A stretch of 64,000 nt of DNA from Thraustochytrium sp. TN22 (Eukaryota; Sar; Bigyra; Thraustochytrida; Thraustochytriidae). Where the stretch lies: NCBI GenBank assembly GCA_013306675.1, contig JABLUY010000096.1, positions 1-64,000 of the forward strand, given 5' to 3'. Shown piece after piece: positions 49,090-56,696 of this stretch. The notes beneath the pieces were generated by a model. That model did not search any database, was not told the DNA's origin, and was given only the letters and a program-made list of their open reading frames with translations. A program made the translations under genes and the position numbers. Position 1 is the first letter of the stretch; every line of letters starts with the position of its first letter.

Positions 49090-50490
49090 CTATGATGGCT
49101 GAAGAGCCACCGGCTCGCGAGACGAGCCCGGAGAGGCGGAGGCGGACGCTGGCGCCGAGGAGGGAGGCGGGAGCGACGCGGTGAGGCGTGCGCCAAAGAC
49201 AGCCTGCAGACGCGCCCCGATCTGCAGGAGCAGCTGCGTGAAGCCCTGGCCCATAACGCGGCCGTCGCCAATGACGTCCTCGAAGGTGATGTCGAGCCAG
49301 CGGTAGTCCTGCGGGTAGGAGATGACGACGATGAGACGCGAGCGCTGCGCACGGTCGTCGTACCACGCGACGGCCCCCTGCGCAATAACCGAGGTGATGT
49401 GCTGGACCTTGAGGTCGGCGTCGTCGTCCGCGCCAGCGGTCTCCTGGCCGGTCTGCGAGGTGCTCGCTGCGGTGGCGGACTTGTAGGAGCGCATGGTTTC
49501 AAAGTTCGAGCGCGTGGACGTCATCGCGACCGCAATGGCTTTACACTTGCCAACGAAGGGGTCGCCGCCCGCGGCGCCGTGCGCGTGCTGCTGGCTGTCG
49601 GCCGCGGACGGCGCGGGCGAGGCGAGCGGCGCGGGCGAGGCGGCGTCCGTAGGACCGGGGCCACCGGAGTCCGCAGCGCTCGCGGCCTCCTCGGACGACG
49701 GCGGGCGCAGCGTGGAGCGCGGCATCCACTCCTCCTGACGCTTGATGATGAAGACGGTGTCCTCGTCCTTGGCCTTGAGCGCAGTGGGTTTGTGGTGTGG
49801 CGGCTTCCAGGACTTGCGGCTGTGCATTACGACGGTGTCCTCGTCCGGCATGTCGACGGTCTCGAGCTCAACGTCCTTGAAGCCGATGAGACGGTCCTGC
49901 TCCTGCGAGCTCTGGTAGAGCTTCCAGTAGTAGTCGGCGACCTCGGTGGCGTCCACACCGGGAAATGACATGTCGAGGCGCAGGTTGATGCGGCGCAGGT
50001 TACCCGTGGAGCCGGCGCGGCTGCCAAAGAAGTTCTCTGTGATGCTGTGGTGCAGCTGAAAGTCCTGCAGCGGGAAGGGCTGGTCCTCGGGCAGCACGAG
50101 CGGCTTCCAGCTCTTGAGCGACTCCGCCACGAGCGCCTGAACGTAGGACTGCGCTGCCTCCGCGCCTTCGCGGCACAACATTCGCTGGCCTGCGAGCGAG
50201 GGCGGGCCGGACGCCAGCTGCATAAACGCCTCAATAAAGTTTTGATGCACCTGCAGCTGCAGCCGCAGCGCCGAGTTCTCCCGGATCATGTCCACCGCCT
50301 CCGTGGACAGGTTGTTCTCCACCTGCATCTCCAGCTGCTTGATCTTGGCGCGGAAGCTCTCGCGCTCATCCTTGAGCTCCTGGTTCGCCTTGCGCAGCTC
50401 CTCCAGCTCCAGCTTGCGCTTGCGCCTGCTCGCGCGGCTCTGCTCCGCCGTGCGCTCCCGCTTGCGCTGCAGCGCCGCCGAGGCCTCCAT
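49090..50490 (-). CDS. bZIP protein with START-like C-terminal region
   Basis: The 466-residue protein (ATG at 50490) begins with a basic region and zipper (KRERTAEQSRASRRKRK, then Leu-spaced heptads to about residue 80). In the basic region the residue usually Asn is Thr, while the Ser-Arg end is kept. Non-Asn basic regions are known in oomycete bZIP proteins. After a linker, a globular region (about 85-240 and 340-440) contains VADYYWKLYQSSQEQDRLIGFKDVELETV and VVVISYPQDYRWLDITFEDV, with the look of a START-like lipid-binding fold interrupted by a Pro/Ser/Ala loop. That fold call is tentative. It would then be a transcription factor with a possible ligand-sensing domain. The upstream frame is Gly/Ala/Arg low complexity and not used. 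Confidence 0.65.
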   Translation of the reverse strand: MEASAALQRKRERTAEQSRASRRKRKLELEELRKANQELKDERESFRAKIKQLEMQVENNLSTEAVDMIRENSALRLQLQVHQNFIEAFMQLASGPPSLAGQRMLCREGAEAAQSYVQALVAESLKSWKPLVLPEDQPFPLQDFQLHHSITENFFGSRAGSTGNLRRINLRLDMSFPGVDATEVADYYWKLYQSSQEQDRLIGFKDVELETVDMPDEDTVVMHSRKSWKPPHHKPTALKAKDEDTVFIIKRQEEWMPRSTLRPPSSEEAASAADSGGPGPTDAASPAPLASPAPSAADSQQHAHGAAGGDPFVGKCKAIAVAMTSTRSNFETMRSYKSATAASTSQTGQETAGADDDADLKVQHITSVIAQGAVAWYDDRAQRSRLIVVISYPQDYRWLDITFEDVIGDGRVMGQGFTQLLLQIGARLQAVFGARLTASLPPPSSAPASASASPGSSREPVALQPS

Positions 50491-50593
50491 CGCCGCTGCT
50501 GCCCGCGCCGCGCCGCGCCGCCGCCGCCGCCGAGCCCGCACCCGCGCCGCGCCGCGCCGCGCCGCGCCCGCCGCGCCGCGCCCGCGCTCGCGT

Positions 50594-50639
<46 letters not shown>

Positions 50640-52699
50640 GCGAGCGATGCGCGCTTGCGACATCCTGAGCGGCCGGCGGCCGCGAGCGAGTGCTGGGCGC
50701 GGCAGATGTCGAGCCGAGCGAGCGTCGCCCGTCGCAGCTCCGGGTCAGCTCGCTCGGTCTGTGTCGCGCGCCGTGGGCTGCAAGCGCAACTGGCACCACG
50801 ACCTCAGGCTCGCCTCCGAGTCCGGGTCCGTGATGCGAGTCGCGGTCGAGGAGTTGGGTAGGTAGGTCCTTGGCCTGATGCTGCTCGGCATTGCTCAACT
50901 TGAAGAGAACCTCGCCTTTCACAGTCAGTATGATGTGGTGCTGGTGCTGGTGGTACACGTAGCATCACCAGTACGGTACGAGCGAGACGAGCAAGAGAGG
51001 AGCAAGAGAGGAGTGCAGTGGCACCTGTGCTACCCAGTGGACTCGGATGGCCGCCTCTAGGCTAACGTTAGAGGCAAGGAAATGAGAGGGGAACCGAGGG
51101 GATCGATCCGAATCATACGTGCCTGCATTCGCTGCCATTTGGCCCCGGCGATGCACACCGTGACCGTGCAGAGGCCGGCGGGATCGAGCTCCAAGATGAC
51201 AAGGGGCGGATTGAAGAACGGCCAGAGCTTTAGTAGAACTTCAAACAGCAGCGTCATGAAGACTGCCAGAGCACTGCAGGCATGGTTGAATCGAGCATGA
51301 TGGTAGTTTGCTGGCAGCGGGCGGGCAGATGGCAGATTGGAGAGCGGCTGGCCGCCAATCTCACGGAGGCTGCCGAGGCGGACTCGGGGAATTGCAATGC
51401 AAATTGCAAGCACTCTCTGCAGGCATGGTTGAATCGAGCTTGATGGTAGTTTGCTGATAGCGGGCGGGCAGATGGCAGATTGGAGAGCGGCCAAATTAGG
51501 ACTCGGGCAACTGCAATGCAATTTGCAAGCACTCTCGCAGGCGTGGCGGAATCTCATTGACAGCGGGCAGATCAGAGAGCGGCCAGAGTTTGAAATCAGG
51601 CTGCGCGCTGCGTTGAACGCGGAATCTTGTTTGACTCGCAATCGATCGGAGAACGGCCAGACCTTGGCTAGGAGAACCGCAAGTTCAAGACTGCCCCGAG
51701 TCGCAAGCCCCTGAGTCGCAGGCCTGACTCGGATGGACCCGGGCCGAGCTTCAATGGGGCCAATGAAAGAGCGCCGAGCATTTTACCCATCGCAAGCTCG
51801 CGCAAGCCCTCGAAACCCGAAATGCAGCGCAAGACAACTACCCGTACCCTACCAGGCTCGCGAAAGCTTGAACGCTGAAGCCGGCCCGTGCCGCCAGCCA
51901 GGCCGTGCGCCCACCGCAGCTCAAGCCGCCCGCGCGACCCGGCGCGACCTGGCCACAGTGTCCCCGGTGGAGAACGGGGTCGCCCGGCCTGTGCAGCCCT
52001 GTGCAAGCAATTCAGGGGCCTTCAGGCGCCTACCAACGCACCCGCTCTCCTGGACGGGCTGGCGATCTTCGCACTCGGACTCGGTGCTTGCCGGGCCACG
52101 TCGCGGGCTGCGCCGCGTGCAGCAGCAGCGCCCCGGCCGGCAGCGCCCGAGAGCGCCCGAGAGGAGTCGGAATCGGAGGGAGGTGACTCGACAGTCAGAT
52201 TTGGAGCCCTCGCCCTAGGCAGTATGCGCGCGCCTCTCACTCACCATCACTGCCTGCCAGTGGCAGTGCCTGCTGACTGACCGTGACTCGGACCGCAACT
52301 TTAAAACTGGACAGCCAGACTCCGAGACTGCCCGGTCTGACTTGGAGACGGCCGAGGCTGACTTTGCTGCAGTGGAGTATCAGGCCGCTGAGAGCGGCAA
52401 GCGGCGGCAAAACCCAATCCAGCGCGGCGAGAGCGCGCGACTTTGCGTAGCTGCGCGCGTGCGGGACCCGGAGCGCGGCGCGCGGGGCAGGGCGCGGGCG
52501 GCGCGGGCGGCGCGGGCGGCGCGGCGCGGGCGGCGCGGCGAGCGAGCGCGCGCGGCGCGGCGAGCGAGCGGGCGGGCACGCGCGAGCGAGCGAGCGAGCG
52601 AGCGAGCCAGCTGCCAGCTGGGCGCGTTGGTCCTGCCTGCACACAACCCTGCACACGCTGGGCGTGGTTGTGCACGAGGACGGCAAGGCGCGCGGCGAG
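50491..52699. promoter_or_regulatory. Divergent spacer with degenerate repeats
   Basis: About 2.2 kb between outward-pointing genes. The bZIP 5' flank has a (GCC)n run at about 50594-50640. A lower-GC middle part (50860-51870) carries a degenerate direct repeat, listed separately. Close to the methyltransferase gene there are (GGCGCGGGC)n runs (52490-52530) and (GCGA)n (about 52575-52605). No gene is supported. Confidence 0.45.
51268..51600. repeat. Degenerate direct repeat, ~137 bp spacing
   Basis: GCAGGCATGGTTGAATCGAG followed by C(A/T)TGATGGTAGTTTGCTG and a GGGCGGGCAGATGGCAGATT run, ending GGAGAGCGGC, occurs at about 51276-51351 and again at about 51419-51491. A third, partial copy (GCAGGCGTGGCGGAATCTCA ... 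GCAGATCAGAGAGCGGCC) is at about 51537-51588. The short end motif GGAGA(G/A)CGGCC(A)GA recurs on both sides, near 51216 and 51650. It has no coding capacity. Confidence 0.75.
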
Positions 52700-55600
52700 A
52701 TGGCGCGGAGGTGGTCGAAGGTTTCGTCGGTGCGGACGACGGAGTCGCCGACGCAGGAGGATGCGGCGGGGGATGTGGCTGTGCGGCGGCGCTCGTACGC
52801 ACGGCACAAGGACCTGGGCCCGGTGAGCGAGGAGCACCAGGAATGGGATGATGAGACTGGCCAGCGCGAGTACGTGGATGACAAAACGAGGGAGGACGAG
52901 GCGCAAGTGCAGGATGACGTGCCGCAGGTGAACCGCGGCGTTTCGCTGGGGTTTCTCCTGCGGTTCGCGGAGTTCGTCAAGCGCCAGGCGCCGGAAGATT
53001 TCGGCAAGTTCCATGTGCGCGACGTGGTGCACGGGTTTGACATGAAGCCCCGTGTGGAAGATGGCGTGTGCAAGTACGATAGTGACCCGGCACCGTACTC
53101 GGTGCGCGGGTTGACTCGCAAGGCGGCCATGAATCTCGCGGACTTTTTGAATGAAGGCAAAAGGCCTTGCCCGGAGGGGAGCGAAGAGCTGCGCCAGAAG
53201 CTGAAGCAGATCGAGCCTGCGGAAATTCGCGAGCTCAAGAAGCCCCATGGGCGCAACGAGGGGGCGCAGGGTGCGGGCGCAAACGCAGCTTCGCAGGATG
53301 CGACCGGCGAGGACAGCGCCGAGCCATCGGTGACGAACGGCGAGGACCTGTCGGGCGCAGCGGCGCCCTTCACCGAGGTGGATTGGTTCGGCCGCGCCGA
53401 CTTTTTCGTGAGTCATGCGTGGGAGCTCAAGTTTGGCGACCTGGTAGAGGCGCTCAAGAACCCCCGAACGACGAACTCGAAGACGTTCGCAGAGCACTGC
53501 CAGAACTACTTTTGGCTGGACATTTTCGCGGTGAATCAGCACTACTTGGACGATGAGGCGGACGACAGGCGCGTGGCGCAAGAGCGCAAGGATGACCTGG
53601 ACAACTTTACCAAAGTGATCGAGCTAGCTCAGCGCGGCGCTGTCCTTGTGCTCTCACCGGAGTTTAAGCCGCTCATCCTGGAGCGTTCGTGGTGCTGGTT
53701 CGAGATCTCCACGGCCCTGTCGACCTCCGGGGGCAACAAGACAATCAACCTGGCCTTGACGCCCAAGCAGATTCGGTCCCTGCGCAACGTGGCGCTCTCC
53801 TTCACCAAGAAGCCGGAAGACCTGTCGATCCCGCAGCGTAACGACCGGACTGCGCTGACAACCATGCTCAAGGACATCGATGTAAGCAAGAGCGAGTGCC
53901 TTCTAGACACGGACCGCAAGTTCATCATGGATCACATCGACAATGGCCTGGGCCGCGATCGTGTCACGCAGAGCGTCAAGCTGGCTGTCGCAGGTCTGAT
54001 CATGACCACGGCCGACTCGCTGCTGGAAAGGCTGGACGCCGGCGGCACGAGCGACCTCTACGAGGCCATGCTTGAGCACTTCGAGGAGGACAAACGCGAG
54101 AAGGCCAAGGCGCTCAACAAGCTGGTCCGCACCTACATGGTCATGGGCCGCACGGACCGCGCCTCAGAGGTGTGTGAGTCTGCCATCAAAATCCAGGAAG
54201 ACCTTCTCGACGCAGGGACGGACCGGGTCGAGCTTCGCGAGATCGAGCTGGAGCTCGCCATCAACTTAACCACCCAGGGCCGCATCCACGGTGACTCACG
54301 CGAACTGGGTGCCATCGAGCCTGCCCTCGATTGCCTCCGCAGAGCTTGCGATATTCGCAGGCGAGCTGGCGATGAAGGGCTGCACGAAGCGCTGTACAAC
54401 CTGGGCCGCGCCATCGTCCAGCACCACGAGCTCTTCGCGGGGAAGACCAAGCGCGACGCCCTCATGGACTTGGCGGAGGCCAGGAAGGCGCTCGAGGAGT
54501 CGAAGGAATTGCAAGAGGAGCAGGACCCGGGAATGGCTTCTCTCGGCGCCTGCTACGTCTTTCTCGGCAAGGTCATTGACCTTATCGAGGATCACGAGGA
54601 CATGCGCTCGCCGAGCGTCGTTCGCCTCGTCGGAGAGGAGGAGGAGGAAGCCTTGGCTCTCGTCGACGGCCATGGTGAGGACGACGGATCCCAGGAGAGC
54701 TTTGACGAGGCTATGGAGTTCTTTCAGAAGGGCGAGCAGCAGCAGCGCAAAGCGTACGGTAACAAGGACCCGCGCGTGTACATGACGCAGCTGGATTCTG
54801 CCAGACACCTTGCACGGCGACTCTCGTATAACCCAGCGGGGGCGTGGAAGCTGTTCACGAGCGCACACGGCGAGCTCATGCGCCATGTGCAGTCGCTGGG
54901 CGGAAACCCGGTCAAGCTTCTCGAGTGCCAGGCTGACATGGTCAACCTGGTGCAGTTTGAGCGTAGACGGCGACAGAGGATGCACGGCCATGGCTCTTCG
55001 CATTCCTTGATCGACCTGGACACGCTCTTTCCGGGGCTGGACGTACTCAAGGAGAACCACATCAAATTTACGAACTGGGTCGATCTGTACCGTCCCCACC
55101 TCTCGGACGTCCCGGAGGTGCTCAACCTCGCGAGGACGGTGCGCGAGTTCGTGATTCAGGAGGCCGGGTCCAAGCAGGAGTTCGCCATCAAGTGCATCGA
55201 GACCGGCCTTCGCGATGACCCCGAAGTGGAAGGGCAGCACGACATCATGGCAGACCTGGACGACCTGCGCGTCAAGCTCAACGAAAGTAGCCGCGCCTCC
55301 CGTCGTATCGCGGCGCCTGGGCTCATGTGCTTGCCGATGGAGAAGATGATGTGGCACCTTCCCGCTGGCGTGGCGGACGTGATCATCTCGGACGCGCCCT
55401 ACAACCGCGCCATCGATCTGGACTGGGACGAGGTTGGCCACAACGACTTCGTCGCCAGTATCAAGCGATGGGCGCGTCTCATGGTGCGCTGTTTGTCACC
55501 GGACGGTATCGGCTTTGCTTTCACAGACGCCAACTATGCGTCCTACTGGATGCACGAGCTGCGCACTGCGCGCGGTGCCGCGCCGCTGCACGAGACGGCG

Positions 55601-56260
55601 CCTGACCCGGCGCCCGCCGTGATCGTGGAGTCCGCCTTTTGGTACAAGCCGGACGCGGCCTGGCGGGGGGACTGGATCAAGGAGTACGAGAAGGGCAAGA
55701 CCAAGTTCGGCGAGAGCTTCCACGCGCCTCAGATTGTGCGGGACAGCGTCGAGGTGGTCATCATCTTTCGCCGCTCGGACTCGGCGGCTCTGGACTTCGC
55801 CCAGCTCGTCACGGAGGCGCTCAACGCGCCCGACTCTGCCAACGTGTGGAACATCCCCAAGTGCAGCGGCGAGGAGCGCCTCAAGGGTGATGGCAAGTGG
55901 CACCCGGCGCAGAAGCCGCTCCGGCTCATGCGGCCCCTGGTCAAGGCCGCCGCGGAGATCGCGCGGAGGCGCCACCTCGCGCGCGGAGGCGCTGCGGACG
56001 GCTCTGCCGACATCCAACGTGATGCGCTCGTCCTCGAGCCCTTTCTCGGCACTGGCAGCGGCATCGTCGCGGCCGCCGAAGCCGGTGTCCCTTCTCTGGG
56101 CTGTGACATGGACGCTAACTGGATCGAGGTGACGAAGGATCGCATCGAGAAGCTTGCCTCTGGCGCGTCCAACACCTTTTCTCTGCCGAGGTCTGTCCTC
56201 GAGCGCGTCGCTTCCTTCACAATGCGCTTGAGCAGGACTGCCGGAGATCTCTCAAAGTGA
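52700..56260 (+). CDS. TIR-like / TPR / DNA amino-methyltransferase fusion
   Basis: One uninterrupted frame of 1186 residues from the ATG at 52700. (1) About 228-360 is a TIR-like domain: RADFFVSHAWELKFGDLVEAL, YFWLDIFAVNQH, VLVLSPEF and RSWCWFE, with Glu335 at the position of the catalytic Glu of NAD-cleaving TIRs. (2) About 450-700 is helical and TPR-like (AKALNKLVRTYMVMGRTDRA, ALYNLGRAIVQHHEL). (3) About 870-1155 is a DNA methyltransferase: DAPY at 898-901 (DPPY-type motif IV), then HPAQKPLRL at 1068 and the SAM-binding LEPFLGTGSGIVAAAEAGVPSLGCDMD with Phe1115. Motif IV before motif I is the beta-class order of bacterial N6-adenine/N4-cytosine enzymes. About 65-140 is an unassigned extra block. 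Transfer of the methyltransferase from bacteria is inferred. Codon use looks like its neighbours, so it is not recent. Confidence 0.85.
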   Translation: MARRWSKVSSVRTTESPTQEDAAGDVAVRRRSYARHKDLGPVSEEHQEWDDETGQREYVDDKTREDEAQVQDDVPQVNRGVSLGFLLRFAEFVKRQAPEDFGKFHVRDVVHGFDMKPRVEDGVCKYDSDPAPYSVRGLTRKAAMNLADFLNEGKRPCPEGSEELRQKLKQIEPAEIRELKKPHGRNEGAQGAGANAASQDATGEDSAEPSVTNGEDLSGAAAPFTEVDWFGRADFFVSHAWELKFGDLVEALKNPRTTNSKTFAEHCQNYFWLDIFAVNQHYLDDEADDRRVAQERKDDLDNFTKVIELAQRGAVLVLSPEFKPLILERSWCWFEISTALSTSGGNKTINLALTPKQIRSLRNVALSFTKKPEDLSIPQRNDRTALTTMLKDIDVSKSECLLDTDRKFIMDHIDNGLGRDRVTQSVKLAVAGLIMTTADSLLERLDAGGTSDLYEAMLEHFEEDKREKAKALNKLVRTYMVMGRTDRASEVCESAIKIQEDLLDAGTDRVELREIELELAINLTTQGRIHGDSRELGAIEPALDCLRRACDIRRRAGDEGLHEALYNLGRAIVQHHELFAGKTKRDALMDLAEARKALEESKELQEEQDPGMASLGACYVFLGKVIDLIEDHEDMRSPSVVRLVGEEEEEALALVDGHGEDDGSQESFDEAMEFFQKGEQQQRKAYGNKDPRVYMTQLDSARHLARRLSYNPAGAWKLFTSAHGELMRHVQSLGGNPVKLLECQADMVNLVQFERRRRQRMHGHGSSHSLIDLDTLFPGLDVLKENHIKFTNWVDLYRPHLSDVPEVLNLARTVREFVIQEAGSKQEFAIKCIETGLRDDPEVEGQHDIMADLDDLRVKLNESSRASRRIAAPGLMCLPMEKMMWHLPAGVADVIISDAPYNRAIDLDWDEVGHNDFVASIKRWARLMVRCLSPDGIGFAFTDANYASYWMHELRTARGAAPLHETAPDPAPAVIVESAFWYKPDAAWRGDWIKEYEKGKTKFGESFHAPQIVRDSVEVVIIFRRSDSAALDFAQLVTEALNAPDSANVWNIPKCSGEERLKGDGKWHPAQKPLRLMRPLVKAAAEIARRRHLARGGAADGSADIQRDALVLEPFLGTGSGIVAAAEAGVPSLGCDMDANWIEVTKDRIEKLASGASNTFSLPRSVLERVASFTMRLSRTAGDLSK

Positions 56261-56696
56261 CAGACCGCACTGCGCAGCGGTGCCCGCGCGTCTTGCGCTA
56301 TCATCAAATGTTTGTTTCTGTTTTTGATGCTGAGCAGAGTGCTCAACTCTTTTTTTTTTGTCATCGTTGGCCTGGACTCAGCAGCAGCAGCAGCAGCGGT
56401 AGCCCATTCTCTTCTTCTTCTTCTTCTTCTTCTTCTTCTTCTTCTTCTTCTTCTTCTTCTTCTTCTTCTTCTTCTTCTTCTTCTTCTTCTTCTTCTTCTT
56501 CTTCTTCTTCTTCTTCTTCTTCTTCTTCTTCTTCTTCTTCTTCTTCTTCTTCTTCTTCTTCTTCTTGCAGCAACGGCACGCGCGCAAACGCGCATACCAC
56601 ACCACCCTCTTACCACTCTAAAATTTGCGTTTTGAACATGCAGCGAAGAGACAGTGTACCCGGCAGCATCATCCATCTGCTGGAGCACGTTGCATC
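56261..56696. other. Convergent spacer
   Basis: Shared 3' region between the methyltransferase fusion and TM9SF genes. It is dominated by the (TTC)n array listed separately. A T-run at 56350-56359 and GCAGCAGCAGCAGC at 56382-56396 precede the array. Confidence 0.6.
56408..56566. repeat. (TTC)n microsatellite, ~53 copies
   Basis: About 159 bp of uninterrupted CTT/TTC (GAA on the other strand). It is a pure polypyrimidine:polypurine tract lying between two convergent genes. The Lys-, Glu-, Leu- and Ser-only frames through it are artefacts. Confidence 0.97.

Follow-up and report, generated by a model that had tools for sequence, protein, structure and literature searches.

Few eukaryotes are named as keeping a bacterial-type amino-methyltransferase, and the passages on this point in PMC12344493 list bdelloid rotifers, Marchantia, and early fungi. 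The bdelloid enzyme N4CMT, in the description given in parts of PMC8885841, has a permuted PF01555 domain in a eukaryotic nuclear genome, joined to a eukaryotic-type domain, and is presented there as having no eukaryotic homologues. A gene resembling N4CMT in this construction was analyzed in Thraustochytrium sp. TN22, within the 64,000-nucleotide stretch (the window) formed by positions 1 to 64,000 of the forward strand of contig JABLUY010000096.1 (assembly GCA_013306675.1). The gene, at 52700..56260 on the plus strand, carries an N-terminal TIR-like domain and TPR-like repeats ahead of a methyltransferase with the motif DAPY, whereas N4CMT has SPPY, bears a C-terminal chromodomain, and writes N4-methylcytosine, according to the same parts of PMC8885841. 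The Pfam scan of the window protein gave no chromodomain, and the SPPY motif is also not present in it. No fusion of a TIR-like/TPR unit with an amino-methyltransferase was found in open-licence full texts, where few queries paired both parts, and TIR as a domain does not occur in PMC9998398. Each half is already known; by this limited test, and in a single genome, the combination in one protein is what appears to be new.

Sequence homology places the gene in an expanded TIR-like/TPR family, of which this member gained a methyltransferase tail. The best reading, which we hold tentatively, is of a protein that would write N6-methyladenine (6mA) under the control of a signal, favored because the catalytic residues are kept (Asp, Pro, and Tyr of motif IV and both Gly of motif I). 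Homology supports an ancestor with a "GVS" domain at its N terminus, followed by a TIR-like domain and TPR-like repeats; in the window member, the C-terminal part was replaced or extended by a DNA-type, beta-order amino-methyltransferase. From the domain order and known families, the TPR-like part may bind a ligand or partner, and the TIR-like part may assemble or make a nucleotide signal via Glu335; the change of state would then switch or position the methyltransferase, placing N6-methyladenine on the cell's own DNA or on that of an invader, e.g., a large DNA virus. Doubtful in our estimation is a TIR-type receptor with the methyltransferase as its working end, in which recognition of a stimulus by the TPRs would lead to N6-methyladenine on chosen DNA as an epigenetic or self/non-self mark.

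The plus strand is free of stop codons at 52664-56260, and from the first ATG at 52700 the frame runs for 1186 codons to the stop at 56260. The 1186-amino-acid product consists, by the frame and the motif positions, of the N-terminal domain, the TIR-like domain, the TPR-like repeats, a linker, and the methyltransferase, all encoded on this strand. The motifs lie where the sequence-only reading, a first inspection without database searches, had placed them: SHAW at 53411 (residues 238-241), WCWFE at 53690 (with Glu335), DAPY at 55391 (residues 898-901), HPAQKP at 55901 (residue 1068), and FLGTGSG at 56042 (residue 1115). The chance of an open run of 1186 codons, computed from base composition alone, is about 3e-16. 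Several antisense frames of 378-426 amino acids overlie the locus, as might be expected if it held two genes or if the long frame were an annotation artifact of DNA rich in guanine and cytosine (GC), but this account is hardly credible against a frame with no stop in 1186 codons, compared with 8, 16, 28, 31, and 51 stops in the other five frames across the same stretch, and against codon-position GC and codon preferences that are alike on both sides of the linker. GC at codon positions 1/2/3 was 0.64/0.41/0.81 in the N-terminal and TIR-like part, 0.69/0.36/0.81 in the middle, and 0.63/0.50/0.83 in the methyltransferase, and codon preferences correlated at 0.81-0.91 among the three gene parts and portions of two neighboring frames. 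The contig that holds the window is 122,226 bases long, and Pfam matches were obtained in 8 of the 11 neighboring frames scanned (HECT, protein kinase, Sec1, JmjC, LRR, EMP70, CTNNBL, and TBC). With these eukaryotic neighbors and host-like codon usage, the methyltransferase fusion is therefore a eukaryotic host gene, and the claim of a single frame with three parts was confirmed: the frame is open from end to end, its codon signature is shared by all parts, and eukaryotic genes flank it.

The permuted (beta-order) N6/N4 amino-methyltransferase domain, at 55376..56137, matched PF01555 (N6_N4_Mtase) in the Pfam scan of the protein with 66.9 bits against a cut-off of 26.7 (E 3.2e-18), phrog_67 with E 7.5e-25, and the PADLOC type II methyltransferases with a best E of 1.9e-16. 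Its motifs follow the order IV-X-I, which is the beta order: DAPY (motif IV, 55391..55402), then HPAQKP (HPTQKP-type motif X region, 55901..55918), then FLGTGSG (motif I and predicted S-adenosylmethionine [SAM] site, 56042..56062). Conservation was read from alignment A6, composed of the window domain and 22 of 80 viral loci, these being one-piece matches that cover nearly the whole domain, with such loci not all included; the choice of rows in A6, as in alignments A1 and A7 described below, biases column counts toward the better matches. Asp, Pro, and Tyr of DAPY and H, P, and K of HPAQKP were invariant in 23 of 23 aligned sequences; in motif I, G1117 and G1119 are kept, and adjacent conserved columns are changed from D to E and from T to G. 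The profile check against N6/N4 families that had been suggested beforehand thus came out in favor of a beta-ordered DNA-type methyltransferase, with PF01555 well above its cut-off.

The bacterial beta-class adenine methyltransferases CcrM, DpnA, MboIIA, and RsrI share with it the order IV-X-I, D-x-P-Y, HPxQKP, and FxGxG. Compared with six aligned bacterial beta-class enzymes, the window methyltransferase is 22-26% identical, has an insert between motifs X and I, lacks the CcrM-type C-terminal domain, and shows many departures at conserved columns. Viral homologues differ at the second letter of motif IV (DLPY, DFPY, and DVPY), so the Ala of DAPY alone does not make the motif defective. Most bacterial cytosine-N4 enzymes carry SPPY, as stated in parts of PMC8885841; the Asp in DAPY therefore points to the adenine-N6 rather than the cytosine-N4 type, and the earlier choice of adenine N6 or cytosine N4 is narrowed by Asp-x-Pro-Tyr to the former. 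The window gene was the sole PF01555 match found in the 37.9-Mb assembly, in which MT-A70 had two matches and C5 DNA_methylase two stretches within one frame.

DNA-modifying enzymes, and not the RNA or protein methyltransferases named earlier as the grouping that would speak against the claim, ranked first in the PDB searches. The protein alone matched 8urk (2.2e-06), CcrM (7.7e-06), MboIIA (3.7e-04), and RsrI (0.002), and the domain profile, built from the window domain and 22 viral homologues and given little weight by the window sequence, matched CcrM first (5.6e-63) and also DpnA, MboIIA, RsrI, a cytosine-N4 enzyme, and PvuII. Further down the same profile search stood a UPF0020-family enzyme (7.8e-13) and tRNA guanine-10 methyltransferases (8e-07); together with a weak TIGR01177 match (E 0.0034), these would suit an enzyme whose substrate is RNA or protein rather than DNA. 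We consider such a substrate highly improbable, as the RNA-type matches span only about 60 profile columns, whereas the permuted order with HPAQKP and the top matches are those of DNA enzymes.

The TIR-like (SHAW) domain, at 53384..53980, contains FVSHAW, FWLDIF, VLVLSP, and WCWFE and is supported by its own-genome family and by a profile-profile match to TIR_2. A search of the genome with this region gave 76 matches at E <= 1 and 44 at E <= 0.001, the query's own locus counted and some of the 76 being pieces of a single frame. Alignment A1 combines the window domain with 29 others of the 76 matches, chosen as the ones given as loci. Residues invariant among these 30 members were W, D, F, and Q in the FWLDIF..NQ block and W, C, and E in WCWFE; at least 90% of the members also keep F, V, S, and A in FVSHAW. 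A1 and a second alignment of the family, A4, were compared with alignment A7, which holds 20 of the 128 TIR_2 matches of the same genome, mostly top-scoring ones. A4 scored 30.0 (E 2e-4) and A1 scored 25.2 (E 3e-3) against A7; none of 150 column shuffles reached these values (best 20.5 and 21.7, respectively), reversed profiles scored 9.7 and 11.9, and the control comparison of the methyltransferase alignment A6 with A7 scored 13.2. The TIR-like and TIR_2 (PF13676) blocks were collinear, with FLSHAW/FVSHAW, WLDE/WLDIF, and CRxEF/WCWFE in register and the Glu of WCWFE paired with that of CRxEF in hhalign. The TIR-like domain differs from TIR_2 in an additional segment separating block 2 from block 3, in its WxDxF...Q signature, and in matching no Pfam TIR model. 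In HMMER, the TIR_2 CRxEF Glu was in turn paired with the Glu in "DWVHKE" of tir-1 and the Glu in "DWCWDEL" of Cat1, a CRISPR-associated TIR; in both proteins this Glu is catalytic. From these alignments, we conclude that the TIR-like part is a remote TIR relative with the putative catalytic Glu335 (codon 53702..53704) in register.

ThsB_TIR was matched by 1 of 30 relatives (E 0.15), and when the TIR-like profile was run against the PDB, the one match was to an unrelated Borrelia surface protein (E 0.4). The WxDxFCxNQ block resembles the fungal HET domain (PF06985), but identity with HET was rejected, the window protein having no match to this model and the family touching it in only 1 of 30 members (E 0.32). 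The genome's two HET matches, one of them over the cut-off, both lie at other loci. HET is described as related to TIR, and HET homologues are reported in stramenopiles, in parts of Dyrka 2014 (PMC4986451).

The invariance of Glu335 also bears on the role of the N-terminal half. TIR domains are often plain interaction modules, and TPRs bind partners; both roles would fit a constitutive DNA methyltransferase that the TIR-like/TPR part just docks or localizes, with no signal involved. We regard this as improbable, since a Glu kept in 30 of 30 aligned members points past docking, although it is no proof of catalysis.

The TPR-like helical repeats at 54050..54820 were recognized from a weak TPR_12 match and from BLASTP, by which homology to sibling genes extends to about residue 707. 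Over residues 229-634, the sibling C77a was matched at E 1.7e-29, and further TIR-bearing siblings were found on contigs C305 (two, at 2e-28 and 1e-24) and C370 (one, at 9e-22). Two more frames on C77 have only the TPR-like part in common with the window protein, C77b over residues 512-707. None of the siblings compared matched past residue 707; the methyltransferase begins near residue 893, and the predicted fusion junction lies inside the linker (54821..55375), where sibling homology ends. The N-terminal "GVS" domain (52937..53383) is shared with paralogues, as seen in a short alignment with C77a, C305a, and C305b and in the L135, C15, and C170 members, and had no Pfam match.

Four TIR-bearing siblings, L033, L036, and L037 among them, carry another C-terminal part with the runs "RRVLILD" and "RVLLLDDD," which by eye looks like a receiver-type domain and had a Pfam match in 0 of 3 scanned. 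Because these four keep the TIR-like/TPR unit but end differently, the C-terminal tail of the family looks exchangeable, and module exchange at the C terminus of a receptor-like family would be the simplest account. TPR arrays over the cut-off stood behind the TIR-like domain in all three wider relatives scanned, compared with a Pfam match in none of three close siblings. In the TIR-like/TPR frames L008, L013, and L021, near-identical tandem TPR units were seen (e.g., ALAQFNEVLEQ..), as in fast-changing recognition repeats.

No relative of the TIR-like family was found in viruses in two scans or in phages by scan, and prokaryote genomes yielded two loci, L135 and L136. L136 was judged from its frames to be a chance antisense match. 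L135, labeled as a Verrucomicrobiaceae metagenome-assembled genome, was rejected as a bacterial member and treated as eukaryotic contamination: its contig is probably eukaryotic because L135:1294-6256 encodes an RZ zinc finger and a phosphoglucomutase that is broken into pieces and has a C-terminal model of vertebrate/fungal type. The L135 protein has the N-terminal domain, a SHAW domain with WCLFE, and kinesin-light-chain-like TPRs in the same order as the window protein; it differs in being an 836-amino-acid frame without a methyltransferase. Since siblings, wider relatives, and L135 carry the TIR-like/TPR unit without a methyltransferase, this unit is likely older than the window gene.

Several results weigh against a signal-controlled 6mA writer or weaken the sequence-only reading. 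The methyltransferase departs from the consensus at 12 of 35 columns conserved at the 80% level (next worst row 8 of 35, median 3) and at 6 of 26 columns at the 90% level (next worst 4), the most among the 23 rows in both cases, a contrast that is exaggerated by the choice of the 22 comparison rows for good match to the search profile. The departures include P899A, T1070A, D1113E, T1121G, and E1136D (numbered from the ATG) and affect motif I; two of those in motifs I/II are Asp/Glu exchanges. TPR_12 reached 22.5 bits on the window protein against a cut-off of 30.1 (E 1.3e-4), no Pfam TIR model matched the whole protein at E 10 or the TIR-like domain at E 1, and hhalign probabilities for the comparisons with TIR_2 were low (11-21% with A1 and 36-44% with A4). 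In the 11 neighboring frames scanned, the Pfam matches included no restriction enzyme. In a methyltransferase tree of 29 rows, the window branch measured 3.92 changes per site and was paired with another long branch at 71/46 support; the methyltransferase has no supported position in it, and none is claimed. Two claims of the sequence-only reading stand in part: the TIR-like domain in its kinship, Glu included, to TIR_2 domains of the same genome, as a remote relative outside the Pfam TIR models, and the TPR-like middle in its sibling homology and the TPRs of wider relatives, with the window protein itself below the cut-off.

On these departures, a pseudo-enzyme is possible and methyltransferase activity plausible. 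If the domain does not write, it might bind DNA or SAM as the reader or bait of an integrated sensor, with the TIR-like domain as output; the target would be foreign DNA or a viral protein attacking such enzymes, comparable to TIR receptors with an N-terminal TIR and a C-terminal sensing part. The integrated-decoy idea has been published for plant receptors (PMC4246468). The order output-repeat-sensor agrees with such an arrangement, as do a methyltransferase that is the most deviant of the 23 compared, motif I included, and an expanded family with differing C termini in a genome where 114 of 128 TIR_2 matches are over the cut-off. It is the main rival to the writer reading, and we place it on the unlikely side of possible: the protein retains HPxxK, the Asp, Pro, and Tyr in motif IV, and the two motif I glycines, two of the motif I/II changes are Asp/Glu exchanges, and no report of NADase activity was met for the TIR-like family, at which no literature search was aimed. 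The signal-controlled writer is kept as the preferred reading.

The origin of the methyltransferase was sought in several collections. For a close donor in viral contigs, a single-protein scan gave three pattern stretches and one weak locus, L039, which was not recovered by a hidden Markov model search of the loci, and in a prokaryote collection (84,980 species) it gave 13 pattern stretches, none of them a relative; such scans require short matching peptides and so rule out close relatives only. By tblastn, matches were obtained in 9 of 50,697 phage records and 62 of 72,556 plasmid records, with 20.7-32.2% identity among the matches listed (9 phage and 20 plasmid). A scan with alignment A2 (at least 600 stretches) kept 80 of at least 173 relatives, at 20-35% identity. 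Within the reach of these searches, a close prokaryotic, viral, phage, or plasmid donor was rejected. Of the earlier description as a bacterial-type enzyme fixed in a eukaryote, the part that stands is a host gene in a eukaryotic chromosome; bacterial origin is supported only in a generic sense, with no close donor found in these collections.

TIR_2 had 128 matches in the assembly at E <= 10, of which 114 were over the curated cut-off. For a single protist, this TIR complement is very large. Many of these domains carry FLSHAWG and CRxEF, as judged from the 20 taken for alignment. At G000:C160:1247-4627, four TIR_2 matches follow each other at an exact spacing of 1043 bases, each with one in-frame TGA, forming a tandem array of TIR units. 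A PfaA-type synthase frame (2539.7 bits), 62-74% GC, and long unbroken frames were also observed, features that suggest a thraustochytrid. Directly behind the window gene, at about 56410-56566, lies a long TTC/CTT microsatellite, and the neighboring frame at 49090-50958 of the window (622 amino acids) has a stretch that by eye is basic/leucine-zipper-like but matched no Pfam model at E 0.001.

If the enzyme works, immune-type sensing and DNA marking would be linked within one polypeptide, and the gene would offer a simple system for asking if protists use 6mA as a regulated mark. A dead enzyme would instead make the protein a candidate integrated bait outside plants. Either way, the large TIR repertoire of this genome, with 114 TIR_2 matches over the cut-off and 76 TIR-like matches, makes the gene worth study.

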